From contig JAAESG010000114.1 of the NCBI GenBank assembly GCA_024229615.1, positions 1-34,381 of the forward strand: 34,381 nt of DNA, in the 5' to 3' direction. The notes below the pieces were generated by a model that worked only from the letters and a program-made list of their open reading frames with translations, was not told the DNA's origin and did not search any database. Each line of letters begins with the position of its first letter. The first letter of the stretch is position 1. Of the stretch, positions 3,667-28,168 are shown in pieces. The position numbers and the translations under genes were made by a program. This DNA is from Gammaproteobacteria bacterium (GTDB lineage: Bacteria; Pseudomonadota; Gammaproteobacteria; GCA-001735895).

Positions 3667-4899
3667 TCAGTCGAGTAGATTTTCTTCATAGGGATAGGTC
3701 GTCAAGAGTTCATAACCATCTTCGGTAATCAGCACCTGTTGCTCGAGCTTGACCCCGTCGCGCTCACCCTTCGGCCCGATGTAACTCTCGATACAGACGA
3801 CCATGCCCGCCTCGAGACTACAGTCGTAAGGGTTTTCCTCACGGAACAGCGGCTTGACCATCGGATACTCATCACACATGCCAACCGCGTGCATGATGCA
3901 GGGATACGCGTTTTCGCGGCATTCTGGCGGCACCGGGTAAGCCTGTTTCTGCATTTCCTTTAATGTCATTCCGGGATAGACGAGCTTCAAATTATGTTCG
4001 ATCTCATCCACCGCGAGGCGATAGATTTCCTTCTGGCGCCGTGTCGGTTTTGCCGGGCCGCAATGGAAGGTTCGCGACAGATCGACAAAGTAACCGAATG
4101 GACCGACCATATCGGTATCGAAGCCCACCAGGTCCCCCGATTCAACCTTGCGTTCACTCGCTTCCTGCAGCCAGGGATTGATGCGTGGGCCCGAAGACAA
4201 CATGCGCCCTTCGTGCCAGTCACCGTTATTGGCGATGTTGGTGTAGTTCAGCAGCCCCCAGAGTTGTAGCTCGCTGACCCCCGGGCGTAGCGCCTTTCTG
4301 ACCATTTCGGCACCGTGCTGGCCGACCGCGATAGCCCAGCGCATGCAGGCAATCTCATCCTCGGACTTGATCAAACGGGCCAGCTCGGCAATACGCACTC
4401 CGTCGATCACCTCGATACCTCGCGCTTCCAGTGCCTGGGTCACCGAAGGATTGACGTACTCGACTGCGACGCGCCGGTTGCGGCTGCCGATTTCATCGAG
4501 GTAGGCAACGACGTCATCAGCCAGTCCTTTTGCACCCTCGTCGATGTTGGTACCGCCCTCGAAAAAGGCGTGCGGTCGGCCCGGGCGAAACTCCTGCACT
4601 TGCGGCACGTCGTAATAACAGCCATAGAAAACCGTTGGACCATCCTGGGGCAGAAACAGGTAAACCGTCGGAATATGCGACTGGAACAACATGTAACTGC
4701 GGTAATCGACCGCGTAGCGCAAGCTGATCGGGTTGACCAAAATGCACATAGCCGCATCGTGTAGTTGTAACTGCTGCTTGAGTCGACCCATGCGGTAGGC
4801 AGACATTCGCTCCAGGTCGATCTGCGGCATATCCTGAAAACGGCTTAGATCACTCCAGTTATCGTCGAATACCAGCTTGTCTACCGGGTTGGCGCTCAT
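3667..4899 (-). CDS. DddP-like M24-family enzyme (candidate DMSP lyase or related non-peptidase)
   Basis: A 410-residue protein of the M24 creatinase/prolidase superfamily. It resembles DddP, the M24-fold enzyme that cleaves dimethylsulfoniopropionate to dimethyl sulfide and acrylate, rather than true Xaa-Pro peptidases. An N-terminal creatinase-like domain (about 35-165) precedes the pita-bread domain. Ligand candidates are D261 and D263 (GFDTDM), D273 (VDLSRTF), H337 (MHAVGMCDEYP), E371 (CIESYIG) and E386 (KLEQQVL). D343 matches the catalytic Asp position known in DddP. The spacing of all of these matches my memory of Roseobacter DddP (D295, D297, D307, H371, D377, E406, E421), with a constant offset of 34-35. 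The tail KLEQQVLITEDGYELLTTYP is also DddP-like. The gene starts at the ATG at 4899, six bases after the threonine aldolase stop, with AGG overlapping that stop as ribosome binding site. DMSP specificity is inferred, not shown. Confidence 0.75.
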   Translation of the reverse strand: MSANPVDKLVFDDNWSDLSRFQDMPQIDLERMSAYRMGRLKQQLQLHDAAMCILVNPISLRYAVDYRSYMLFQSHIPTVYLFLPQDGPTVFYGCYYDVPQVQEFRPGRPHAFFEGGTNIDEGAKGLADDVVAYLDEIGSRNRRVAVEYVNPSVTQALEARGIEVIDGVRIAELARLIKSEDEIACMRWAIAVGQHGAEMVRKALRPGVSELQLWGLLNYTNIANNGDWHEGRMLSSGPRINPWLQEASERKVESGDLVGFDTDMVGPFGYFVDLSRTFHCGPAKPTRRQKEIYRLAVDEIEHNLKLVYPGMTLKEMQKQAYPVPPECRENAYPCIMHAVGMCDEYPMVKPLFREENPYDCSLEAGMVVCIESYIGPKGERDGVKLEQQVLITEDGYELLTTYPYEENLLD

Positions 4900-11426: not shown

Positions 11427-12314
11427 ATGATGAGTTTTTCTACAAATCAACACCAATCAACAGCTGCCTTGTTGCTGGCTTCAACCTTGATTCTCTTGCC
11501 TGGTGTATCGAGTGCCCATGGAGATCGGGTTTGTGCAAACGAAACTATTAGCGGGGGTGTCTTCAAGAATATCAGGATCGATGCAGGTGCTTCGTGTACG
11601 CTGGAGAATGTAATCGTAAAGGATCGAATAAATGCGGTTAATACGACCGGTGTCGAAATGTTTGGCGTGACGGTCGGGAAAGAGGTTCATATCACTGGGT
11701 CAACGGGTGACGTCGATATCCGCGGTTCAACCTTTCGGAGCAAGTTAGAAATCACGAACAACTATGTAGATGGTGACATTAACGTGGTTGGCAATAACAG
11801 CATCGGTGGTGATCTGGTTGTTCGTAATAACTCAGCAGTCGGCTTCCTGATCGGCAGCAGGGTATCAGGTGGCAATCAAGTACGAGGTAAACTGCAGGTA
11901 GAAAGGAACCAGGCTAAGTACTTTATCGCGGCCAATAACAACCTTGTCTGGGGCGACATCCGGGTATCGCGTAACGATGCAGGAGAAGATATTTCTGCCT
12001 GGCAAAACAATGTTCAGGGAAGCATCCACTATGAGAGCAATAAGTCAAGCGACGACGTCTGGCCTCAGTTTTTCAATTCAGTATTACTGAACAATGTCGG
12101 CAAGAAAGTTATCATCAAGAAGAATACAACCATCGCTCCAATCGTTGCCGCAGGCAATATAGTTGGCGATAAATTCGAGTGTGGAAGTAACATGGGACCC
12201 AACCAGGAGTCATTGTTGATAGATAGGTCGCCCGTCGAACTCGAGGATGGGACGAAAGTTGGAGAAAACGTCATCCTTGGTAAGGTAAAATGCGAGTTTG
12301 CTGACGACGAGTAA
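11427..12314 (+). CDS. Secreted repeat protein, probable right-handed beta-helix
   Basis: A 295-residue exported protein of unknown function. Residues 1-30 form a signal peptide (LLLASTLILLPGVSSA, cleavage before HGD). The mature part is built of degenerate repeats with the pattern G-D-I/L-x-V-x-x-N-x (for instance GDINVVGNNSIGGDLVVRNN and GDIRVSRNDAGEDI), rich in Asn, Gly and Val as in beta-solenoid ladders. Four cysteines lie at the two ends (VCANET, SCTLEN, FECGSN, VKCEF), which may cap the solenoid by disulfides. Ribosome binding site GAGG is five bases before the ATG; a second ATG follows immediately. Likely periplasmic or surface located. It stands between a transposase remnant and a hairpin, in an accessory stretch. 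Confidence 0.7.
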   Translation: MMSFSTNQHQSTAALLLASTLILLPGVSSAHGDRVCANETISGGVFKNIRIDAGASCTLENVIVKDRINAVNTTGVEMFGVTVGKEVHITGSTGDVDIRGSTFRSKLEITNNYVDGDINVVGNNSIGGDLVVRNNSAVGFLIGSRVSGGNQVRGKLQVERNQAKYFIAANNNLVWGDIRVSRNDAGEDISAWQNNVQGSIHYESNKSSDDVWPQFFNSVLLNNVGKKVIIKKNTTIAPIVAAGNIVGDKFECGSNMGPNQESLLIDRSPVELEDGTKVGENVILGKVKCEFADDE

Positions 12315-12366
12315 GCTGACCACTGATAAAGGGAGTAGTAGTCCGCCAGTATGACGTCCCAGTCCA

Positions 12367-12400
12367 ACTGCCCTGTGATGGATTATCTTCACAGGGCAGT
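12367..12400. terminator. Perfect 12-bp stem-loop downstream of the secreted repeat protein
   Basis: ACTGCCCTGTGA and TCACAGGGCAGT form a perfect 12-bp stem with a 10-base loop, extended outward by GTCC/GGAC with a small internal bulge. It lies 52 bases after the stop of the secreted protein gene. No T-run follows on either strand, so it may be a Rho-assisted terminator, an mRNA stabiliser or part of a mobile element end. Confidence 0.5.
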
Positions 12401-12402
12401 AA

Positions 12403-12684
12403 GGACGGAATTCGATTTATCTCAAAGGCCCTGGTTGGAACAGAGCACCCGCAAATTGCATAAAGCCCCCTCTTTCCGATCCGAGTGATAAAGGCGGCAT
12501 TTCAGTTTTACACATTGGTATCGATAGCCTCTACCTGTCTTACCACGGTGAACTTCACTCAGATATCGAAGCAAAGCTTGAAAAGTGCAAGGAGAAGACA
12601 CAGTCCACGGATGCTGATATCCAGTCACAAGGTGTAATTTATCTTGCGGATCATTGCTTCGAGGTTAGTTATAGGAAGAATTAA
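12403..12684 (+). pseudogene. Gene remnant lacking a start codon (HIGIDSLYLSYHGEL protein)
   Basis: An open frame of 93 codons between a TAA at 12400 and a TAA at 12682, with no ATG, GTG or TTG near its beginning. From about codon 26 it reads PPLSDPSDKGGISVLHIG, then DSLYLSYHGELHSDIEA, a Lys/Glu-rich helix, and DIQSQGVIYLADHCFEVSY before the stop. The alternation of strand-like and helical segments and the codon pattern look like a real protein rather than chance. I suspect an N-terminal fragment of a larger gene, perhaps of plasmid or phage type, but I cannot name the family. The hairpin at 12367-12400 abuts it directly. Confidence 0.45.
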
Positions 12685-13178
12685 AACCCTATTTTCCCTA
12701 TTCCGCCAAAATAAAGAAAGAGTTTCGCGAAGCCGCCTAGCCCTGGAACACCCGAAGTCTGAGTTATTCCCGCCGACAAGCCAGGATTGCTCCTTCCCGT
12801 CGGTTGATCCAGCCAAATTTCAGTCACCAGGCATGCCGACTTTTGCTTCAGCTCTTGCTAATTGACGCGAGCATGAGTGTCTCAGTTGGTACTGAGCACG
12901 CAAGTTGCCGATCTGAGTAACTCTTTCCTGGAAGCCGATGCTATAAAATTGCCGAGGCGGTGCCTTCATATTGTTACTTCTTGATACCAGGTTATTTGAT
13001 TTTGAAATTCAGTAACCACCTGACTGGCGAAATTCGACTTTATCCATTAGTTCACACACTCAGGGAGAATTACTTCCTTGGCTAATCGCATTTTTCAGAC
13101 TAGATTTAACTAACTCCGCTATATATTAAGTAAGTAGTAATCAATAAGAATCATGTTTTAGGGTATTTGGAGTTCTGT
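12685..13178. other. Non-coding or decayed stretch, no gene recognised
   Basis: Nearly 500 bases with AT-richer composition than the flanks. Short frames exist on both strands but their translations have no conserved look. The last 60 bases before the next gene (around ATATATTAAGTAAGTAGTAA) are AT-rich and could hold its promoter, but no convincing -35/-10 pair is seen. Confidence 0.4.
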
Positions 13179-13505
13179 ATGTTTAATTGGCTATTTGCGA
13201 ACAAGAGAAAGAGCGCCTCAGTCACCCCCAAATCGGTAATGAGTGAACTGTCGATGAGAGCAAGTATTGAGGGTAAGCTCAGGAATTATAACGCGGACGA
13301 AGATACCACTATCTCGGAATTTTCCCTGGCTGATGATGATCAGGGAATAGAAACTGCGGGCAAAGCTACGACGGTTTCAGATTATGATGTCTGGGGTCAA
13401 GCCAACCCTAAGGAGACGGGTAAATGGAATAAGGAAGTTCGACAGAAAAGGAACAGAGCACAGGCCGGTAGGCATTCTATCAACCCTCGACAAAAGAACA
13501 TTTGA
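13179..13505 (+). CDS. Small hypothetical protein, orphan
   Basis: A 108-residue hydrophilic protein beginning MFNWLFANKRKSA. The ATG at 13179 is preferred over 13167 because GGAG lies six bases upstream. The first residues are hydrophobic then basic, the middle acidic (NADEDTTISEFSLADDDQG) and the tail basic (RQKRNRAQAGRHSI). No domain, signal peptide or membrane helix is recognised. It is probably soluble and largely disordered. It precedes a truncated FecR-like gene in another frame. Confidence 0.45.
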   Translation: MFNWLFANKRKSASVTPKSVMSELSMRASIEGKLRNYNADEDTTISEFSLADDDQGIETAGKATTVSDYDVWGQANPKETGKWNKEVRQKRNRAQAGRHSINPRQKNI

Positions 13506-16001: not shown

Positions 16002-17390
16002 TCAGGCAATGAGCTGCAGTGGGTCCCAGCCAAAAACCCGCTCGATATAGCTGGCGAAAGCAAACAATTCAAGCTCGCCATGCGGCTTGCCGATGATTTG
16101 CAGGCCGATTGGCAAGCCCGATTCTGTCTTGCCACAGGGCAAGGTGATCACCGGCAGGGTTGTCGCGGTGATCGCGCAGCAGATATACAACCAGCGATAG
16201 TACTCCGAGTATTCGAGACCATCGGAAAAACCCGGGAAACGCTCCTCGACCGGATAAGGCGTCAGGATGGTGGCCGGGCAGATGAGTAAATCGTAATCCT
16301 GCATAAATAACGAAGCGTTGGCGAAAACCTGCCCCTGCGCATCCATGGACTGCCGGATTTCGTCGGCATCGATGGCAAGACCTTTTTCAATGTTCCAGAT
16401 ATTTTCGGGTTTCAAAATATCACGCAAGTCATTGAGATCGGCACCGTACGACTGGGCATAATCGAGTGCGCGCGGAACCTCGAACGCGGCATGCATCATG
16501 CTCAGGTCCGGATGTGTGTTTTCAATAGCGATCATTTCCTGCTCGAGTTTGGCGATAGCACTGGTACAGATCGCAGCGACCTTGGCCGAGGTCCGGGTAA
16601 CACCCAAATCCTCGCTATAGGCAATTTTCAGTGGCTTCGTCGGCCGCGCCGCTGCATTTCCAAACTCGTCAAAAACATGCGGTTTACTCAGCCCCGCCAA
16701 CGCACTCGGACCCGCCATAACATCGGTAAACAGGGCCAGATCGGCGACCGTGCGCGCCATCGGGCCCTTTTGTGAATAAACACCGAACGGCTGCATGCCC
16801 GGGTTGGTGGCAATCAATCCGGGCGACGGTCTTAAACTGGTGACGCCGCAAAACGCGGCCGGCGTACGCAACGAACCGCCGAGGTCTGAGCCTTGCGCCA
16901 GCCAGGCGGTGCCACTGGCAAGCGCGGCCGCTGCTCCACCCGATGATCCCCCGGCGCTTCGCGTCAGGTCATACGGATTACGCGTCGCACCGAATACATC
17001 GTTAAAAGTATTCGCACCGGTGCCAAATTCGGGCGTATTCGATTTGGCGTAGACGATCCCGCCATTGGCTTCGAGCCGTTCCACCAGGATATCGGACTGT
17101 TGAGGAACATGGTTTTCATGCAGCATCGAACCGTAGGTTGTCCTGACCCCGGCGACATCGGTCAAATCCTTGATCGCAACCGGGATTCCGGCCAACGGTG
17201 TATCTTTCAGATCGCCCTGCCGGGCCGCCGCGCGGGCACGTTCGAAACAAAGCGTCGGTAATGCGTTGATGTCGCCATCGACCTCCTCGATTCGCGCCGC
17301 CAGCGCATCCAGCGTGTCATCGCCAGTGAGCTCACCTGCCTGTAGCAAGCTTACGATTTCACAAGCACTTTTGCCGATTAATTCATGCAT
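16002..17390 (-). CDS. Amidase signature family hydrolase
   Basis: A 462-residue cytosolic amidase with the Ser-cisSer-Lys triad in place: the Lys in PVAIKDLTDVAG (near residue 75), the cis-Ser in SAGGSSGGAAAALASG and the nucleophile Ser in GSDLGGSLRTPAAFCG. The AKSNTPEFGTGANTFNDVFG segment between them is typical of GatA-like amidases. The family includes malonamidase E2 and ureidomalonase, which yield malonate. The gene overlaps the malonyl-CoA synthetase stop by eight bases, so the two are translationally coupled; a substrate releasing malonate is therefore attractive, but not proven. GatA itself is unlikely because no gatB or gatC is adjacent. Confidence 0.87.
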   Translation of the reverse strand: MHELIGKSACEIVSLLQAGELTGDDTLDALAARIEEVDGDINALPTLCFERARAAARQGDLKDTPLAGIPVAIKDLTDVAGVRTTYGSMLHENHVPQQSDILVERLEANGGIVYAKSNTPEFGTGANTFNDVFGATRNPYDLTRSAGGSSGGAAAALASGTAWLAQGSDLGGSLRTPAAFCGVTSLRPSPGLIATNPGMQPFGVYSQKGPMARTVADLALFTDVMAGPSALAGLSKPHVFDEFGNAAARPTKPLKIAYSEDLGVTRTSAKVAAICTSAIAKLEQEMIAIENTHPDLSMMHAAFEVPRALDYAQSYGADLNDLRDILKPENIWNIEKGLAIDADEIRQSMDAQGQVFANASLFMQDYDLLICPATILTPYPVEERFPGFSDGLEYSEYYRWLYICCAITATTLPVITLPCGKTESGLPIGLQIIGKPHGELELFAFASYIERVFGWDPLQLIA

Positions 17391-18870
17391 ATTTGTCCCG
17401 CAAAATATTCTTTTGCACCTTGCCCATCGCGTTGCGCGGTAATTCGTCGAGCAGATAAAGCTTGCGCGGTAACTTGAAACGCGCCAGCGCCGGCTCGAGC
17501 GCCCTGATCAATTCTTCCGGGTCGAGTTCGGTGCCGGCGACCGGCACGACCGCGGCGGCAACCGCCTCACCCAGGTCGGCGTGCGCGATACCGAACACCG
17601 CCGATTCGAGCACACCATCGAGCGTGTCGATTTCGCTTTCGATCTGTTTCGGATAAATGTTATAGCCTCCCGAAATGATCAAGTCTTTTTCGCGCCCGAG
17701 AATATGCACGTAACCATCCGCGTCGATCTTGCCCAGGTCGCCACTGATGAAATAGCCGTCGTCGCGTAATTCGAGCGCGGTCTTCTCCGGCTTGCGCCAA
17801 TAACCGAGAAAAACATTCGGCCCGCGCACTTCGATCATGCCGGTTTCTCCAGCTGCCAGTTCAGCACCGGTTTCGGGATCACTGATCTTGATATCGACCC
17901 CGGGCAATGCAAAGCCGACACTGCCGACACGACGCTCGCCGGTGTAAGGATTGGACGTGTTCATGTTGGTTTCGGTCATGCCGTAGCGCTCGAGAATGCG
18001 ATGCCCGGTGCGTTGCTCAAATTCGATATGGGTTTCGGCCAGCATCGGCGCACTGCCGGAAACGAACAGGCGCATATGTGCAACCAGGTCGCGATCAAAG
18101 CGCGCATCGGCGAGCAGGCGCGTGTAAAAAGTCGGCACACCCATCAATGTGTTCGAGTGGGGCATTTGCTCGATCATCCGATCGACATCGAAGCGCGTCA
18201 GGAAAATCATCGATGCGCCCGCCACCAGAATGATATTGGTGGCGACGAACAAGCCATGGGTATGGAAGATCGGCAACGCGTGCAGTAACACGTCATCGCT
18301 GTTGAAATGCCAGTAATCGACCAGCGTCAATGCATTCGACAACAGGTTGTCGTGGCTCAGCATCGCACCCTTGGACAGACCCGTAGTGCCCGAGGTATAC
18401 AGGATTGCGGCGAGGTCCTGCGCCTCCCGTGCGACGTTGTCAAACTCCGTCGCATGCGCTTGTGCAGCCTGCATCAGATCGCCACCACCGTCGCCATCGA
18501 GACTGAAAAGACGTGACTCGATTCCATCGAATTCAGCCTTGCGCTCGCTGCTACAGACAAACATTGCGGGTTCGGCATCATCCAGAAAATAGCAAACCTC
18601 GCTGCGTGTATAAGCGTTGTTCAATGGCAGAAAAACCGCCCCGGCACGTACCGTGGCGAGATACAGCGCAATCGCCTCGACTGACTTTTGTACCTGCACC
18701 GCAATACGGTCGCCAGGCCGGACGCCTTGCGCCAGCAGCAAATTTGCCAGTTGAGCGCTCACCGCGACCAGTTCGGCGTAAGACCAGGATCGTTCGCCAG
18801 GCACTTCCAGCAGGGTTCGCGAGTCGGTTTCCCGTCCTTTTAACAAGCCGTCATATAAATGATTAGCCAT
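17383..18870 (-). CDS. matB: Malonyl-CoA synthetase (malonate-CoA ligase)
   Basis: A 495-residue ANL-superfamily enzyme that joins malonate and CoA with ATP. It has the P-loop LAAILYTSGTTGLSKGAML, the A5-like RYGMTETNMNTSNPYTGERR stretch whose NTSNPY sequence is a hallmark of MatB, YFISGDLGKIDADGYVHILGR, the hinge DLIISGGYNIYP, and the catalytic Lys in PRNAMGKVQKNILRD near the C terminus. The ATG at 18870 shares a base with the transporter's TGA (TGATG type overlap); a GTG three bases earlier is also possible. Middle gene of the transporter-matB-amidase unit. No malonyl-CoA decarboxylase lies in the window, so product malonyl-CoA may feed fatty acid synthesis or a decarboxylase elsewhere. Another short-chain dicarboxylate ligase activity cannot be excluded. 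Confidence 0.88.
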   Translation of the reverse strand: MANHLYDGLLKGRETDSRTLLEVPGERSWSYAELVAVSAQLANLLLAQGVRPGDRIAVQVQKSVEAIALYLATVRAGAVFLPLNNAYTRSEVCYFLDDAEPAMFVCSSERKAEFDGIESRLFSLDGDGGGDLMQAAQAHATEFDNVAREAQDLAAILYTSGTTGLSKGAMLSHDNLLSNALTLVDYWHFNSDDVLLHALPIFHTHGLFVATNIILVAGASMIFLTRFDVDRMIEQMPHSNTLMGVPTFYTRLLADARFDRDLVAHMRLFVSGSAPMLAETHIEFEQRTGHRILERYGMTETNMNTSNPYTGERRVGSVGFALPGVDIKISDPETGAELAAGETGMIEVRGPNVFLGYWRKPEKTALELRDDGYFISGDLGKIDADGYVHILGREKDLIISGGYNIYPKQIESEIDTLDGVLESAVFGIAHADLGEAVAAAVVPVAGTELDPEELIRALEPALARFKLPRKLYLLDELPRNAMGKVQKNILRDKYA

Positions 18871-19787
18871 CACAGCACCGGCACCGGTTTTCGGCGCAGG
18901 CCACTGAGCGCATTACCTGCAATCGCCATCATCAGGACGGAGCCTCCAAACAGCGTATAAAAACTGACACTTTCACCCATGAAGATCCACACCCAGAACG
19001 GACCCAGCAATACTTCCGTCATCGACAACAAGGTGAGTTCCGCCGCCGGCACTACTTTCGAACCAACGGTATAAATCACCAGCCCCATTCCGACCTGTAA
19101 ATAACCCAGCGTAATCGCGATGCCGATATCGCTGCGCGGCAACGCAAAACTGTAGCCTTTAGCCAGACATATCATGCCTGCCGTGACGAAGGCAAAAACT
19201 CCGGCCAGGAACACGGCCGGCAACATATCCTCGAGCTTGCCCCAACGCAACGCGATGCTGAAGACCGCAAATCCGAACGCCGATCCTATCGCGCTCAGGT
19301 TACCGACCAGCCTTCCGGCGGCAAAACCGTTGATGACCATGATGGCGATGCCGATCGATGCGAAGATCATCGCAACCCAGGTCGCCTTGCGTACCTCTTC
19401 ACGCAGTATGATCCAGCCGAAAACCGCGGCCAGGAATGGCGCCGCGGCAAACAGAAACATCGCGTTCGCGACCGTCGTGGTCTGGATCGCATAGACACCG
19501 CCGCTAAACGCAGCCACGAGACCGAGCGCGCCGATGACCCCGGCGATGCCGGCACTCCTGATCGCCGCGACGGGCCTGAAACCCGATTTATAGGTAATGA
19601 TGCAAAACAGGAAGATGGCCAGGGCGATCGAGCGGTAGAACAGAATCTGCCAGACATTGGCCTCCTCAATGAGCCGAATCCCGACACCCATCGACGACCA
19701 GAACACGCCCGCCAGCAATACCAGCACGACACCGCTGACATAGCTGATATTGGGTGATTCGAGCCTCGCGGCCATGGTCTCGGACAT
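18870..19787 (-). CDS. EamA/DMT-family transporter
   Basis: A 305-residue inner-membrane protein with about ten transmembrane helices in two EamA repeats, e.g. LVLLAGVFWSSMGVGIRLI at the first helix and FGFAVFSIALRWG at the second repeat. The final helices VWIFMGESVSFYTLFGG carry the typical GE motif. I chose the ATG at 19787 (MSETMAAR), just ahead of the first helix; the frame remains open to an ATG at 19958, but that stretch overlaps the divergent PhyH gene. First gene of the unit with matB and the amidase. Family members export or import small metabolites; here a malonate-related or amide compound is conceivable. Confidence 0.85.
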   Translation of the reverse strand: MSETMAARLESPNISYVSGVVLVLLAGVFWSSMGVGIRLIEEANVWQILFYRSIALAIFLFCIITYKSGFRPVAAIRSAGIAGVIGALGLVAAFSGGVYAIQTTTVANAMFLFAAAPFLAAVFGWIILREEVRKATWVAMIFASIGIAIMVINGFAAGRLVGNLSAIGSAFGFAVFSIALRWGKLEDMLPAVFLAGVFAFVTAGMICLAKGYSFALPRSDIGIAITLGYLQVGMGLVIYTVGSKVVPAAELTLLSMTEVLLGPFWVWIFMGESVSFYTLFGGSVLMMAIAGNALSGLRRKPVPVL

Positions 19788-19935: not shown

Positions 19936-20834
19936 ATGCAACAGGACAAACCTTTCAATCAGGTCACCGTGGACTGGCACCGACCTGATTTAGTCATAGA
20001 CACCAGTGAACTGGCAACATTTAGCGCACGCGACGAAGACATCGAAACTTTCAGGCGCGACGGTGTGGTGGTGCTGCCAGGCGCCAGCCGCGAATGGGTC
20101 GAAACCCTGCGCACCGGCCTGCAGCGCAACCTGGACAACCCACAACAATTTGCCTTTCCCTGCGAAAGCAATCCCGCAGATCTTCCCGGCCGATTTTTTG
20201 ACAGCTATTGCAACTGGCAACTGATTCCCGAATACCTCGACTATGTCTCCCATTCATCGGCCGCATCGATCGCGGGGCAATTCATGCACGGCGAAAGCGC
20301 GCAGTTTTCCACGAGCACGCCTTCATGAAGGCCCCGGGCACACAACGCGCGACGCCGTGGCACCAGGACCTTTCCTACTATTGCGTCGATGGCATGCATA
20401 CCGCGACCGTATACGTGTCTTTGGATCATGCCGATGCGGACGTGGCAGTACAGTTCGTCAAAGGTTCGCATCACTGGAACAAGTCATTTTATCCGCGTGT
20501 TTTCGAAGATGGCAGCGATTTTAACAACGACCAAGCCGATGCCGAACTCGAACCGGTACCCGATATCAACTCGAACCCGGATCAGTACGATATCGTCGCG
20601 TGGGCGCTGCAACCGGGTGACACCATCGTATTCGATTTTCGCACCCTGCACGGCACGGGCGACGCCACTATCAAATCCCTGCGGCGGGCATTTTCAACGC
20701 GCTGGATAGGCGACGATGTCACTTATTGCGAACGCCCGGGTGAAACCTCGCCGCCCTATGTCGATCACGGCATGCAAAGCGGCGACAGGATGCGCGAGGA
20801 CTGGTTTCCGGTTTTGTGGCGAAGGGCGGCTTAA
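19936..20834 (+). pseudogene. Phytanoyl-CoA dioxygenase (PhyH) family oxygenase, frameshifted
   Basis: Two overlapping frames make one PhyH-type non-heme Fe(II)/2-oxoglutarate oxygenase. The first, from the ATG at 19936, gives FRRDGVVVLPGASREWVE and ends after QFMHGESAQF. The second continues with FHEHAFMKAPGTQ, PWHQDLSYY (iron ligands His and Asp of HxD), TVYVSLDHADADVAVQFVKGSHHW, and FDFRTLHGTG with the distal His followed by the 2OG-binding Arg in RRAFSTRW. Adding one T to the T4 run at 20305-20308 restores a normal 299-residue protein. So this is either a recent mutation or an assembly error. It diverges from the transporter-matB-amidase unit and converges, with a 4-base overlap, on the FAD oxidoreductase. 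Substrate unknown. Confidence 0.75.
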
Positions 20835-22156
20835 ACCTCCTTCCGCGCGCGCCATAACTCCCAGGCCATTCGAGCCCTGACCCCGATGCCAAGGAAAGGC
20901 TGCATCGGCAATCGGCTGGGTTCACCGAGGCTTTGCATGAAGCCGATCAGCTCATTGTCGATACCGCAGGCCATGTCCGCGGCGAGCATACCGCCCGTGG
21001 TCCCCTTGGTGACGCCGATCGCGTTCTGACAGATCGAGGTATGTATATTGTCCGCCAGCCGGCCAAATCCCGGTGCGCCATTTTGCGACAGGCAGATGAA
21101 GCCGGTCCAGGTATATTCCATCTCGACCTGCGGCAGCATCGGGAAGCGTTCATCGAACAGGCGCTTGTGTCGCCGTGCAATTTTGCCCTGGTATGAAGCC
21201 GTTTCCCGCATCGACGGGTTGTAGTAGATGTTGTTACGGATCAAAATACGGTGATCCTGTGTATAGCGCATCGTGATCGCCGCAAACGCATTCGCCGGCG
21301 TCACACCCCAGTTCTCTTCGCAACCGATCGTATCGCGTTCCGCATCGGTCAGCTGCCGGCTCAGACTGGCGTTGGCCGCAAACGGCAGCAGTCGGCGCCG
21401 ATAGAATCCAAACTGCTCGGCGAAAGCGTTGACACCGAGAATCATTTGCTTTGCCCTGACTTCGCCACCCGCGGTCGTCAAACTGATTTCGGCGCCACTG
21501 TTAAAACGAGTCACCGGGGTATTCTCGTAAACGCTGACGTTTTCCGGCAGATTATCGGCGAGACCACGCACCAATGCCGCAGGATTGAGCAGCCGACAAC
21601 CCGGGGTGTAAATCGCCGCCTTAAAATGCGTGGTGCCGAGACGTTTGTCCAGATCAGCCTTGTCGATCCAGCTGAAGGGCTCGTTGAGTGCTTCCAGCTC
21701 ACGCGCGAAAGGCTCCAGTAATTCGGTAACCCCCTGCGCCGAACAGGCGGTCTGGTATTTACCGGGCTTACTCCAGTCGCAATCGATGTTGTAACGTTCG
21801 ATCTGGGTCTCGTGATAGGCGATCGCGGCGCGTGCCAGCGCCATGTAACGATGCGAACCATCGAGCTCATCCATCGAGCTGCCGACGACATGTGGCAGAT
21901 CGATCGCAAAACCTGAATTTCGGCCCGAGGCATTCTCACCGACCTCACCGGCATCGAGTAATGCGATGCTGTCGTCGGGGCGATTCTCGGCCAGGCGCCG
22001 TGCAGCGGCCAGGCCGGCGTAACCGGCGCCAATGACGACCCAGTCGACCTTGTGCAAGCCCGCCAGTGCCGGGTTCGGCCTTCGCATCGGCAGAACCCGG
22101 CTCCAGCCGTTGGTGTTATCTTCGATCGGGAAGTGTGAAATCTGTTTCGCGTTCAT
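20831..22156 (-). CDS. FAD-dependent amine/amino acid oxidoreductase, PuuB-like
   Basis: A 441-residue flavoenzyme of the DAO family, closest in pattern to gamma-glutamylputrescine oxidase-like proteins. VDWVVIGAGYAGLAAARRL near residue 38 is the FAD-binding Rossmann motif; GENASGRNSGFAIDLPH follows as the usual second FAD contact. C-terminal features include MEYTWTGFICLSQNGAPGFG and NAIGVTKGTTGGMLAAD. The ATG overlaps the stop of the EutQ-like cupin in an ATGA arrangement, so the two are coupled. The enzyme probably oxidises a secondary or N-methylated amine or an amino acid; the shared promoter region with an MttB-family methyltransferase suggests a methylated amine, by inference. Confidence 0.85.
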   Translation of the reverse strand: MNAKQISHFPIEDNTNGWSRVLPMRRPNPALAGLHKVDWVVIGAGYAGLAAARRLAENRPDDSIALLDAGEVGENASGRNSGFAIDLPHVVGSSMDELDGSHRYMALARAAIAYHETQIERYNIDCDWSKPGKYQTACSAQGVTELLEPFARELEALNEPFSWIDKADLDKRLGTTHFKAAIYTPGCRLLNPAALVRGLADNLPENVSVYENTPVTRFNSGAEISLTTAGGEVRAKQMILGVNAFAEQFGFYRRRLLPFAANASLSRQLTDAERDTIGCEENWGVTPANAFAAITMRYTQDHRILIRNNIYYNPSMRETASYQGKIARRHKRLFDERFPMLPQVEMEYTWTGFICLSQNGAPGFGRLADNIHTSICQNAIGVTKGTTGGMLAADMACGIDNELIGFMQSLGEPSRLPMQPFLGIGVRARMAWELWRARKEV

Positions 22157-22509
22157 TCGATTTCATGCCAGTTCGACGGGTGAATCGCAAAATGTATCAA
22201 AGCCGACTCCGCCTCGTAAACCAGTTCAGTACCGCTCGGCAACCAGATACAGTCACGCGCTCGCAACTCATGCACCTCTCCATTGGCGTGCAGCATGAGT
22301 ACACCCTCAAATACCGTCAGAACCTCGTCATACCTGATCGTCCACGGGATGCGTGCATGGCTTAACCTGCCCCAGCCGGTGCCGAGTTCGGTGCCATCCT
22401 CGGCGCCACAGATACCCGACACTTTGGCCATATCGCCGTATTCGAAACGCGGGGCAAACTCGAGGTCATCGAATCGCTCGACCCGCACAGGTGTTTTCGC
22501 TTTACTCAT
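22153..22509 (-). CDS. EutQ-like cupin protein
   Basis: A 118-residue single-domain cupin. The stretch IPWTIRYDEVLTVFEGVLMLH followed by ELRARDCIWLPSGTELVYEA matches the two cupin motifs in the EutQ/ethanolamine-utilisation style, where the usual metal-binding histidines are largely replaced (YDEVLTV), so metal binding may be weak or absent. A strong ribosome binding site (AGGAGG) lies eight bases before the ATG. First gene of the leftward pair with the FAD oxidoreductase, divergent from tetR. Cupins in such clusters may be dioxygenases, isomerases or ligand-binding proteins; the role here is unknown. Confidence 0.75.
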   Translation of the reverse strand: MSKAKTPVRVERFDDLEFAPRFEYGDMAKVSGICGAEDGTELGTGWGRLSHARIPWTIRYDEVLTVFEGVLMLHANGEVHELRARDCIWLPSGTELVYEAESALIHFAIHPSNWHEIE

Positions 22510-22537
22510 TGATCATCCCTCCTGTCGATTTTCTATC

Positions 22538-22565
22538 TTGCATATAAAATACAGATATGTATATT
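22538..22565 (+). promoter_or_regulatory. Putative sigma-70 promoter for the tetR-mttB operon
   Basis: TTGCAT (22538-22543) and TATATT (22560-22565) are separated by 16 bases, a plausible -35/-10 pair directed rightward, with transcription expected to start near 22572, about 23 bases before the TetR ATG. The -10 box overlaps the left arm of the operator palindrome, as expected for repression. Confidence 0.45.
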
Positions 22566-22584
22566 TAACCATACATATCTGTAT
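22549..22584. promoter_or_regulatory. Candidate TetR operator: perfect 14+14 bp inverted repeat
   Basis: ATACAGATATGTAT (22549-22562) and its exact reverse complement ATACATATCTGTAT (22571-22584) are separated by eight bases. The palindrome sits in the 85-base gap between the divergent cupin/FAD and tetR/mttB transcription units, over the likely -10 box, so a TetR protein bound here could control both directions. The right arm covers the possible ATG at 22583, which favours 22595 as the regulator start. Confidence 0.75.
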
Positions 22585-22594
22585 GGATTCAATC

Positions 22595-23266
22595 ATGTCT
22601 GATACCAAGCTGCTCCGAGCGGTCGCCGAACGTGGTAATTCGGCCCCGGAGCGAACCCAGTTACAACGCTTTGACTGGCTGCAAAAAGCACTCGAGATCT
22701 TCGTTGCGGAAGGTATCGACGCAGTGCGTATCACGCGCCTGGCGCAGGATCTCGGCGTCACTCGCGGCAGTTTTTACTGGCATTTCGAAAACCGTGATGA
22801 CTTGATCGATGCCCTGGTGCACTACTGGAAAGACAAGAACACCGCTGCGATTACCGACTCGATCCTGCAGGCAAAAAGCCTCAGTGACGGCATTTTTCGC
22901 TTTTTCGAAACCTGCATCGATGCCGCACTGTTCGACCCAAGACTCGATCTCGCACTCAGGGAATGGGCGCGACGCTCCCCCACCGTGCGTGACCTCGTGG
23001 ATCGTGAAGACGAGGCCCGGATCGATGCCTTGCAACAGTTTTTTCTACGCTTCGAATTCCCGATGCCACAAGCGTTGATTCGCGCACGCGTGCTCTACTA
23101 TTCGCAGATTGGCTTTTACGCGCTCGAAGTGCAGGAACCCCTGCAGACCAGGCTCGGCTACACCGAGGCCTATTTCGAGGCTTTCACCGGCGAACAACTG
23201 GATTCGCTCGAAGCCACCGGTTTTCGCAAACACATACTCGAGACTTATGGAGATAAATTGTCATGA
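22595..23266 (+). CDS. TetR-family transcriptional regulator
   Basis: A 223-residue regulator. The helix-turn-helix domain is at residues ~26-74: ALEIFVAEGIDAVRITRLAQ followed by DLGVTRGSFYWHFENRDDLI, the standard recognition helix pattern YxHFxxRddL. The C-terminal ligand-binding domain is all helical. The ATG at 22595 is chosen because the earlier ATG at 22583 lies in the operator. Its TGA overlaps the ATG of the MttB-family gene (ATGA), so regulator and enzyme are co-translated. Most likely it represses both its own operon and the divergent cupin/FAD pair through the 22549-22584 palindrome until an inducer, probably the pathway substrate, binds. Confidence 0.88.
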   Translation: MSDTKLLRAVAERGNSAPERTQLQRFDWLQKALEIFVAEGIDAVRITRLAQDLGVTRGSFYWHFENRDDLIDALVHYWKDKNTAAITDSILQAKSLSDGIFRFFETCIDAALFDPRLDLALREWARRSPTVRDLVDREDEARIDALQQFFLRFEFPMPQALIRARVLYYSQIGFYALEVQEPLQTRLGYTEAYFEAFTGEQLDSLEATGFRKHILETYGDKLS

Positions 23267-24789
23267 GAAGATCTCGCCGCGGCAGGCATCATGGCCAGAC
23301 CGATACGTCACATCAGCGCCAGGTCATTTACCGTAACCTGAAAAACCCGTTGATCAAGCAGCCGGCCTTCAGCGCCGACCGGCTCGAGGCCATACATGAC
23401 ACCGCGCTGCGCGTGCTCGAAGAACTCGGCATCAAGGTGTTGAACAGCGAAGCCCGGCAATACTATGCGCAGGCTGGTGCCAGTGTCGATGAAGCCTCGA
23501 TGATGGTGAAAATCGATCGTGAACTGGTCGCAAGCGCACTCGAAACAGCGCCGAGCGAATTTATCCTGCACGGCCGAACGCCCGCGCACGATGTCACCCT
23601 CGGAGGCGATAATATCAACTTCGTTTCGGTCGGCGGCGCACCGCATATCTCAGACCTCGACCGCGGCAAGCGTCCCGCAACCCTCGAGGACACACGCAAC
23701 ATCATCAAACTGTGCGAGCACTTCGACATCATCCATCTGCAATCACCCAACGTCGAGTCACAGGATATCGCGGTGCATCTGCGCCACTACCCGGTTACCC
23801 AGAGCCAGCTAAGTCTTAGTCAGAAGCCCTTTTTTATTTTTTCGCGCGGGTCGGAACAGATCGCCGATGCCTTCACGATGACGCGCATCGCCTATGGACT
23901 CAGTCAGGAGGAGTTTGAAGCCAAACCCTGGTGCTACACCGTGATCAATACCAATTCGCCACGCCAGCTCGACCTGCCGATGTGCCAGGGCATCATCGAT
24001 TTCGCCCAGGCCGGACAGGTATCGGTTATCACGCCGTTTACACTGGCCGGTGCAATGGCCCCGGTGACCATGCCGGGTGCACTGGTATTGCAGCACGCCG
24101 AAGCTTTAGCCGGGATTCTGTTGTCGCAAATCGTGCGCAGCGGTGCGCCGGTCGTTTACGGTTCGTTTACATCGAATGTGGATATGAAATCCGGTTCACC
24201 GGCCTTCGGCACGCCCGAATTCGTGCAGGCAGCTTTCGGTGCCGGGCAACTGGCGCGCCATATCGCTCTTCCCTGGCGTGGCTCGGCCGCGACCGCATCT
24301 AATGCCCCCGATGAACAATCCGTATACGAATTCCTGATGTCGGCCTGGGGCAGCATACTCGGTGGCGTTAACATGATGGTGCATTCGGCGGGCTGGCTCG
24401 AGGGCGGTCTGACCGGCTCGATGGAGAAGTTCATTCTCGATATCGAAATGTTGCAAATCTTCGCCGAGATATTCGAACCACTCAAAAGTGATGATGCGGA
24501 ACTGGCCTTCGATGCGATCGCCAATGTCGAACCCGGCAGCCATTTCTTTGGTTGCGATCACACCATAGAACGCTATCAAACCGCCTTTTACGAGCCGCTG
24601 GTATCGGACTGGAGCAATTTTGGCCAATGGACCGACAATGGCAGCAAGACCGCGACGCAACGTGCGAATGGGATCTGGAAGAAAATCCTGCTGGATTTCG
24701 AGGAGCCCGCGCTGGACCCGGCACGCGCCGAGGAACTGCAGGCCTTTATCGATCGGCGCAGCGCCGAGGGCGGTGCTGCTGTCGATTAA
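23263..24789 (+). CDS. Trimethylamine methyltransferase (MttB) family protein, non-pyrrolysine
   Basis: A 508-residue member of the MttB superfamily, which includes the pyrrolysine-dependent trimethylamine methyltransferase and the pyrrolysine-free glycine betaine methyltransferase MtgB. The basic N terminus (RRSRRGRHHG) and FSADRLEAIHDTALRVLEELGIKVL are typical of bacterial non-Pyl members; further family segments are YGSFTSNVDMKSGSPAFGTPE and LGGVNMMVHSAGWLEGGLTGS. There is no in-frame TAG, so pyrrolysine is not used. These enzymes form a TIM barrel and move a methyl group from a quaternary or tertiary amine to a corrinoid protein. No corrinoid protein or activator gene is adjacent, so acceptor and chemistry are open. 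Co-transcribed with tetR. Confidence 0.88.
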   Translation: MRRSRRGRHHGQTDTSHQRQVIYRNLKNPLIKQPAFSADRLEAIHDTALRVLEELGIKVLNSEARQYYAQAGASVDEASMMVKIDRELVASALETAPSEFILHGRTPAHDVTLGGDNINFVSVGGAPHISDLDRGKRPATLEDTRNIIKLCEHFDIIHLQSPNVESQDIAVHLRHYPVTQSQLSLSQKPFFIFSRGSEQIADAFTMTRIAYGLSQEEFEAKPWCYTVINTNSPRQLDLPMCQGIIDFAQAGQVSVITPFTLAGAMAPVTMPGALVLQHAEALAGILLSQIVRSGAPVVYGSFTSNVDMKSGSPAFGTPEFVQAAFGAGQLARHIALPWRGSAATASNAPDEQSVYEFLMSAWGSILGGVNMMVHSAGWLEGGLTGSMEKFILDIEMLQIFAEIFEPLKSDDAELAFDAIANVEPGSHFFGCDHTIERYQTAFYEPLVSDWSNFGQWTDNGSKTATQRANGIWKKILLDFEEPALDPARAEELQAFIDRRSAEGGAAVD

Positions 24790-26430: not shown

Positions 26431-27249
26431 TTACTCGCCGCGATTTTCGTCGGCAATGGGCAGATCGTAAAGGCTACCATACTGACCCAACTTGTCGTCT
26501 AGTCCGGCAAGCCGTAAAGCATGCCAGGCCATTGCATGATTGGACGAGGTCAGCGGTATGCCGAGGCTCTTCTCCAACTCGGCACAGGCCTGCATCAGCC
26601 GCACCGAGGTGCAGGAAACGAAAATGGCGTCAACCTCGGCATGTTTGAGCAGCTCACGCACGCCCTGCTCGATCGACTGTGGTGTAATTCGCGCGACCAC
26701 CGTATCCCGATCGGAATTAAAAGAACCAAATACCGGCACCTGGTAACCGCGTGCACCGATGTAATCAGAGACGATTCTGTTGACGTCGGCCGAGTATGGG
26801 GTCAACACGCCTATACGGTGCGCTTTGAATGCATCGAAAGCTGCGAACGCGGCGGTAATCGGAGTTGTGCACTTGACCCCTGGTTTCGCCAGCCGGATGT
26901 TGGCAAAGACCTGCTCCTCACCAATCGCCATCGAGGCCGAGGTGCATCCATAGGCCACCACATCGAGCGGGGTATCCGGTGTAATCACGCGTGTACATTC
27001 GACGATACGCGGCTCCATCGCGCGCAGCGTTTCCGGAGTCACCAGGTTTTCGTTGTGAATCCGGCTCTGATAGAGGGCGACGCCGTCGAGCGCCGCAAAA
27101 ACCTGGCGCCATTCGTGTTCGATGGTGTAGTCGGTGGCGAGCACGATCAAGCCAATCGAAGCACGCCGCGCGATACCCCTGTCGAGCTCATAGGGCAGAT
27201 GTTCAATCAGTCGGGTTTGGTTGATTGCTTTACTGGCTGGCTGACTCAT
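26431..27249 (-). CDS. Asp/Glu racemase superfamily enzyme, EutA/maleate isomerase-like
   Basis: A 272-residue protein of the Asp/Glu/hydantoin racemase superfamily, with the two catalytic cysteines in VAYGCTSASMAIG and IFVSCTSVRLMQ. The N-terminal ARRASIGLIVLATDYTIEHEW and C-terminal LTSSNHAMAWHALRLAGL resemble maleate cis-trans isomerases, arylmalonate decarboxylases and the ectoine-utilisation protein EutA. The ATG at 27249 has AAGG six bases upstream; a start at 27288 would run into the divergent transporter. It could racemise or isomerise a dicarboxylate or solute-derived amino acid. No other ectoine degradation gene is next to it. Divergent from a DMT transporter with a 37-base gap. Confidence 0.8.
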   Translation of the reverse strand: MSQPASKAINQTRLIEHLPYELDRGIARRASIGLIVLATDYTIEHEWRQVFAALDGVALYQSRIHNENLVTPETLRAMEPRIVECTRVITPDTPLDVVAYGCTSASMAIGEEQVFANIRLAKPGVKCTTPITAAFAAFDAFKAHRIGVLTPYSADVNRIVSDYIGARGYQVPVFGSFNSDRDTVVARITPQSIEQGVRELLKHAEVDAIFVSCTSVRLMQACAELEKSLGIPLTSSNHAMAWHALRLAGLDDKLGQYGSLYDLPIADENRGE

Positions 27250-27286
27250 AATTGACCTTACTTTTTTTGTCTGTACATACTTTAGC

Positions 27287-28168
27287 ATGAATAAAAACCA
27301 GATTGTCGGTCGAGCAATCGCTCTGGCGGCGGCGATTTTCTATGGTTTCAACACGACCCTGTCGCGGCTTGCCTATGACACGGGCACCACACCGGTGTCA
27401 CTGACGATATACCGCTTCCTGATGTCGGCGGTACTGATGATCGCGATCGTACTGATACTGCGGAAATCATGGAAGATCGCGGTCGCGCCAATGACCTTTG
27501 CACTCTGTATACTGGGTAATTTCGCCACCTCGATCGGTCATCTCGGTGCAGTTAAATATATCCCCGTCAGCCTCGCCGCAATCATTTTCTATACCTTTCC
27601 GCTGTTGGTGGTGGCTTACAAACGTCTTGCCAATCGCGAACCGGTTGCCCGCAACGAATTGCTCGCGTTTATACTTGCGTTTATTGGTATCGGGGTAGCG
27701 CTCGGAGTCGATTTTCACGAATTCGACCCGCTTGGAATCGGACTAGCCTTTTTGGGCGCTGTGGGCGCCAGCGTTTTCATCCTCAGTTACGAACGTTTCC
27801 CGCAGCAGACCGATGCCTATGTCGGCACCATGTGGATCATGATCGCAACGATTGCCTTTTCCCTGTTGGTATTGCAATTCGGCTTCGAACTGGTGCCGCC
27901 GAAAGAGTCGTCAGGATGGGTATACCTGGTCCTGATCAGCGCAGCGTCATCCACCGCATTCGTTTTATCGCTGCAGGCAATTGGTCGGATCGGGGGGGCC
28001 ATTTTCGCGCTGCTGCTGAATTTCGAGCCGGTTATCATTTTATTGCTGGCCTGGATCGTCCTCGGCGAAGAACTGACGCTGGAACGAACCGCCGGGATTA
28101 CCCTGATCGTATTCGCATTGTTCCTGAGTCACTGGAGGATTCCGCGACTCAATACGGCAAGCAGTTGA
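27287..28168 (+). CDS. EamA/DMT-family transporter
   Basis: A 293-residue inner-membrane protein with ten hydrophobic helices in two EamA repeats: RAIALAAAIFYGFNTTLSRLAY opens the first and GLAFLGAVGASVFILSYERF the second. The final FEPVIILLLAWIVLGEELTL carries the GE motif. The start lies 37 bases from the divergent racemase-like gene, and the AT-rich gap contains TGTACA, a possible small operator. It may export or import the racemase substrate. Only distantly similar in sequence to the DMT protein at 19 kb. Confidence 0.85.
   Translation: MNKNQIVGRAIALAAAIFYGFNTTLSRLAYDTGTTPVSLTIYRFLMSAVLMIAIVLILRKSWKIAVAPMTFALCILGNFATSIGHLGAVKYIPVSLAAIIFYTFPLLVVAYKRLANREPVARNELLAFILAFIGIGVALGVDFHEFDPLGIGLAFLGAVGASVFILSYERFPQQTDAYVGTMWIMIATIAFSLLVLQFGFELVPPKESSGWVYLVLISAASSTAFVLSLQAIGRIGGAIFALLLNFEPVIILLLAWIVLGEELTLERTAGITLIVFALFLSHWRIPRLNTASS

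Follow-up and report, generated by a model that had tools for sequence, protein, structure and literature searches.

Which substrate is served by a divergent gene set that places an MttB-superfamily methyltransferase opposite a FAD-dependent oxidoreductase and an EutQ-type cupin, and what would accept the methyl group? The genes lie in a 34,381-nucleotide stretch of gammaproteobacterial DNA, analysed here as a whole and referred to as the window. Very few members of the MttB superfamily have an assigned substrate, and an MttB that is conserved along with a regulator, an operator and a flavoenzyme partner of its own provides a tractable handle for assigning one. An earlier sequence-only reading proposed a role in the catabolism of a methylated amine or betaine, and this remains the likeliest role for what is one conserved divergent locus linked to a TetR operator. 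Most likely, the locus demethylates a betaine-like compound and the remainder is oxidised, the individual steps being predicted from gene families and context. The full scheme combines TetR control, passage of a methyl group from MttB into a shared corrinoid-folate pathway, FAD-dependent oxidation and a cyclic amino-acid betaine as substrate; held to all of these parts at once, it is a tentative account with somewhat less than an even chance of being right.

The locus comprises four genes in two arms. On the minus strand are a DAO-family FAD-dependent oxidoreductase of 441 aa (20831..22156; PF01266, E 2e-43) and a 118-aa EutQ-type cupin (22153..22509; PF06249, E 3e-9), whose closest solved relative is EutQ (2pyt, E 4e-10). 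The plus-strand arm encodes a TetR/AcrR-family regulator of 223 aa (22595..23266, with an in-frame alternative start at 22583; PF00440 (TetR_N), E 2e-11), followed by a 508-aa non-pyrrolysine MttB-superfamily methyltransferase (23263..24789; MTTB, PF06253, E 2e-193). The ORF list and Pfam bear out all four reading frames (20831-24789) and the domains first attributed to them. The ATGA overlaps described in both arms can be read directly, the cupin stop and FAD start sharing GAATGAAC (minus strand) and the TetR stop and MttB start sharing GTCATGAG. The locus has no BCCT or TRAP transporter of its own.

The methyltransferase matches PF06253 over residues 5-504 of 508, with 643 bits against a gathering score of 25. 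As had been proposed, it lacks pyrrolysine: its 508 codons form a continuous ORF with no in-frame stop or amber codon, colinear with relatives. Against TIGR02369, the trimethylamine methyltransferase equivalog, it scores 334 bits, below the cut-off of 525. Solved relatives include 4yyc, 2qne/9yce (MtgB) and 7xcl (MttB). Known non-pyrrolysine members act on quaternary amines carrying an acid group (PMC12155760), and the window protein would likewise take one methyl group off a carboxylated quaternary amine. Among homologous MttBs (50-65%), the majority have as a neighbour a DAO-GcvT fusion of the dimethylglycine/sarcosine dehydrogenase type, so pairing an MttB with an adjacent amine-oxidising flavoprotein is the common design.

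Between the two arms, a single palindrome had been reported. An intergenic inverted repeat is indeed present (15-bp arms, 2 mismatches, about 22549-22584), but it resolves into two dyads, ATACAGATATGTAT at 22549..22562 and, 22 bp from it, ATACATATCTGTAT at 22571..22584, both copies of the conserved motif ATACAGNNCTGTAT. The window contains 2 copies of this consensus at no more than one mismatch, where 0.02 are expected by chance, and none of 100 shuffles contained two such sites. Such sites are also present in the intergenic region beside TetR in the same-genus loci checked, in Roseovarius (L047) and on plasmids from Tistrella and Paracoccus (L105, L106), as well as in congeners without the FAD-cupin pair (L194, L195, L198). 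The window TetR is 44-50% identical to the TetRs of Tistrella, Paracoccus and Roseovarius. The two dyads are a phylogenetic footprint of a TetR operator, and the repressor would bind them in tandem to control the divergent catabolic locus. Elsewhere in the genome, four other single-mismatch sites were found against three for a reversed control, and no further targets are claimed.

Conservation of the locus was surveyed in 31 genomes of the genus. The full divergent FAD-cupin/TetR-MttB set occurs in 12 further genomes, a count that leaves out the window genome (13 with it), as well as in Roseovarius, where the four proteins are 45-62% identical to those of the window; Roseovarius sp. MMSF_3359 carries all four genes. 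An MttB orthologue of at least 74% identity is found in most of the 31 genomes, some copies being partial at contig ends, and FAD orthologues of 57-82% identity are found in 8 loci. Two additional loci (L029/L031) carry FAD-cupin and MttB but no TetR that could be recognised; their MttBs form one clade with the window group (SH-aLRT 99). The Roseovarius MttB falls elsewhere in the tree, and the association of FAD-cupin with MttB is therefore not a single recent inheritance.

The four genes had been described as a self-contained module, a description that the partial sets contradict. The loci of Tistrella and Paracoccus contain no MttB; facing a related TetR with the same operator is a cupin-FAD pair, and a TRAP transporter comes next. 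In three congeners (G289, G301, G293), TetR-MttB lies opposite an EamA-type transporter gene without FAD-cupin, and a MatB-type ligase and an amidase follow where the contig allows. The four genes are therefore a meeting of two combinable units.

The relatives of the FAD enzyme bear on its substrate. Those at 35-44% identity adjoin DHDPS-family and ALDH genes, joined in one case by a proline racemase and by a relative of the Tistrella TRAP transporter, a layout that we take to represent 4-hydroxyproline catabolism. One paralogue from such a hydroxyproline-type cluster lies on contig C79 of the same genome (L158). In contrast to these clusters, which combine a proline racemase or epimerase, an FAD dehydrogenase, a DHDPS-family deaminase and an ALDH, the window locus is without DHDPS-family, ALDH and racemase genes, and its FAD enzyme groups with other cupin-linked members. 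No DHDPS-family deaminase, ALDH or epimerase was found among the genes flanking the locus, which places it outside the hydroxyproline-type clusters. The FAD enzyme also scores far below the curated cut-off for L-pipecolate oxidase AmaA (NF050086; 123 vs 600 bits). A further cluster (L160) contains FAD, ALDH, DHDPS, GntR, EamA, an enolase-superfamily (MR/MLE) protein and MttB, and L161 has the same layout, judging from ORF sizes and matches. The known pathways for hydroxyproline betaine employ an epimerase of the enolase superfamily together with a Rieske demethylase, and the L160 MttB therefore looks like a substitute.

A second clade of cupin-linked FAD enzymes, from Acinetobacter, Pseudomonas and others, is accompanied by a Rieske oxygenase, a rubredoxin-type reductase, an ALDH and a BCCT betaine transporter. 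The clusters of Acinetobacter (L186), Pseudomonas (L108) and Oceanisphaera (L107) resemble the window in having an adjacent FAD-cupin pair and an N-demethylase candidate, but a Rieske oxygenase stands in place of MttB and the FAD enzymes are only about 41% identical. On the tree, the pairing of FAD enzyme and EutQ-type cupin needs two changes, with one change in 26% of bootstraps, and may have had either one origin or more. From the hydroxyproline-type relatives, the L160 cluster and the Rieske/BCCT clade taken together, the leading substrate class, at low confidence, is a cyclic amino-acid betaine, with a proline-betaine-like compound as the leading guess. Under this scheme the FAD enzyme would oxidise the demethylated secondary or tertiary amine. 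AlphaFold2 modelling of the FAD protein with 8 sequences gave a mean pLDDT of 61, a quality too low to support fold searching.

The cupin would act as an accessory of the FAD enzyme. It exceeds the Pfam EutQ gathering score (37.3 vs 21 bits) and shares with EutQ 2pyt the cupin family, the YDE motif and an aligned core without metal histidines, although at 41 bits it is far below the cut-off of 193 for the EutQ equivalog of ethanolamine utilisation. The suggestion that it lacks clear metal histidines holds, as there is no His among 28 invariant columns, and no second EutQ-family gene was found in the genome. A more ambitious proposal is that, in aerobic-type bacteria, MttB has replaced an O2-dependent Rieske demethylase as the first step on cyclic betaines, and that the imino-acid dehydrogenase to which it is coupled depends on a dedicated EutQ-type cupin. 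We regard this as doubtful; if true, it would represent an undescribed pathway and give such a cupin its first role other than in ethanolamine utilisation. Literature searches on EutQ together with Rieske and betaine, and on induction of the MttB family in Rhodobacteraceae, yielded no relevant papers.

The genes next to the locus give rise to the main rival. The module was originally drawn too short, as in this genus the conserved stretch extends to an EamA-type transporter of 305 aa (18870..19787, minus strand; PF00892 and synteny), a malonyl-CoA synthetase (MatB)-type acyl-CoA ligase (17383..18873, minus strand; PRK07514 of NCBIfam), an amidase-signature hydrolase (16002..17390, minus strand; PF01425, E 6e-89) and often a PhyH-family Fe/2OG dioxygenase (19936..20834, plus strand; PF05721). 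The PhyH gene is intact in congeners and frameshifted near 20307 in the window; an intact homologue matches MysH (E 3.5e-27). EamA, the MatB-type ligase and the amidase, retained even where FAD-cupin is missing, do not fit a proline-betaine route. They would instead suit the degradation of a short acyclic betaine ending as malonate, for example beta-alanine betaine, in which MttB would demethylate, the FAD enzyme would oxidise the amine, and the amidase would release malonate from an amide intermediate, for conversion to malonyl-CoA by the MatB-type ligase. The ligase scores 785 bits against the PRK07514 cut-off of 558 and is close to a solved malonyl-CoA synthetase (4fuq, E 5e-192), and the genome encodes a malonyl-CoA decarboxylase. 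The amidase matches urethanases, biuret hydrolase and malonamidase E2, and other amide hydrolases recur near FAD-cupin or MttB, of another amidase-signature subfamily in L029/L031 and of the nitrilase type in L180, all from distant or unrelated families. Against a malonate route, MatB and the amidase were not seen beside the Roseovarius, Tistrella and Paracoccus loci, the amide step lacks established chemistry here, and the relatives of the FAD enzyme suggest cyclic imino acids. The route is kept as the main rival because the MatB score, the recurring amide hydrolases and the decarboxylase favour malonate and misfit proline betaine, but it is on balance unlikely.

Since FAD-cupin and MttB are separable, they may also serve different substrates and share just one TetR-controlled divergent promoter region. 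The two partial arrangements, cupin-FAD-TRAP without MttB and TetR-MttB without FAD-cupin, each with the operator, are consistent with this, as is the separate clade of the Roseovarius MttB. However, the two remain combined in 13 genomes of the genus, in Roseovarius and, even without TetR, in L029/L031, and DAO-type flavoproteins recur beside MttBs, which makes separate substrates rather improbable.

Returning to the favoured demethylation scheme, the methyl acceptor, which the sequence-only reading had left unexplained, has a ready candidate. Contig C283 of the same genome (L114) carries B12-binding, Pterin_bind, RACo and MTHFR genes of the MtgC, MtgD, RACo/RamA and MTHFR types beside another MttB, and their products may be the cognate partners of the window MttB. 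MttB would pass the methyl group to the corrinoid protein MtgC, MtgD would transfer it to tetrahydrofolate, MetF2 would oxidise the methyl-THF and the RACo-type protein would keep the cobalt reduced. An MtgC orthologue is present in 29 of the 31 genus genomes and in all 17 good ones, with or without the four-gene locus, and is thus compatible rather than specific evidence.

Precedents exist for such an arrangement. In Ruegeria pomeroyi, a shared, unlinked MtgC/MtgD/RamA/MetF2 set is used in methionine synthesis and glycine betaine demethylation, as shown genetically by Mausz et al., and is suggested to serve several PF06253 proteins (PMC12478193). The present genome is similar in encoding a PF06253 protein in a proteobacterium with unlinked corrinoid, pterin, RamA and MetF2-type genes and many MttB paralogues; it differs in that the window MttB is paired with FAD-cupin under a dedicated TetR and shares only about 38% identity with the MttB adjoining the Mtg genes on C283. 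In Eubacterium limosum, the non-pyrrolysine enzymes MtpB, MtcB and MtyB, each specialised for a single betaine, have been shown biochemically to use the same MtqC, MtqA and RamQ, although this organism is an anaerobic acetogen and the available portions of these sources mention no FAD dehydrogenase or EutQ cupin partner (PMC8604678, PMC12155760).

That MttB works through another methyl acceptor without any corrinoid protein, the novelty implied by the earlier reading, is very improbable. In its favour, no corrinoid gene adjoins the locus, and about 17 full-length PF06253 genes in the genome are matched by just two stand-alone corrinoid proteins. Against it, several E. limosum paralogues have been demonstrated to share an unlinked corrinoid protein (PMC8604678), and the same has been proposed in R. 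pomeroyi (PMC12478193). A complete shared set is present here, which is why corrinoid-independent chemistry was set aside as the default reading. The acceptor biochemistry is ordinary, and what is new about the locus is how its known parts are arranged, not the chemistry. It adds to the evidence that cobalamin-dependent osmolyte demethylation by way of a common corrinoid core is widespread beyond anaerobes. Besides the two stand-alone B12-binding proteins, a third match lies inside a 1253-codon frame that is read as MetH.

Most relatives of the window's MttB protein at 50-65% identity are encoded beside a DAO-GcvT fusion protein of about 800 aa, DAO being the FAD oxidoreductase family PF01266 (loci L032-L104). 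Among these loci, those of Rhodobacterales also carry a TetR gene downstream. MttB is additionally found in gammaproteobacterial clusters of the hydroxyproline type (L160, 5341-14420; also L161), together with FAD, ALDH, DHDPS and GntR genes and an enolase-superfamily protein. These clusters possibly function in hydroxyproline betaine catabolism, with MttB replacing the Rieske demethylase.

Elsewhere in the source genome, contig C564 (L113, 7631-12307) encodes a second corrinoid protein. Next to it lie an MttB paralogue that is highly divergent and an ORF of 815 aa whose N terminus is flavoprotein-like. Matches to the MttB family (PF06253) on contigs C635 and C179 occur in fragments, suggesting that these genes are broken or split by assembly.

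Within the window, a frameshift near 20307 disrupts a PhyH-family dioxygenase gene (19936-20834, + strand) whose counterparts in congeners are intact and encode 297-306 aa. An EutA-like gene of the Asp/Glu-racemase family (26431-27288, - strand; 220 bits versus a cut-off of 318) adjoins an EamA gene, a synteny kept across the genus.

A DddP-like M24 protein is encoded at 3667-4899 (- strand) of the window, and others adjoin MttB-DMGDH and Rieske-FAD-cupin clusters (L098, 12169-13536; L108 from Pseudomonas, 12149-13396). The window and Pseudomonas proteins score below the DMSP lyase cut-off.
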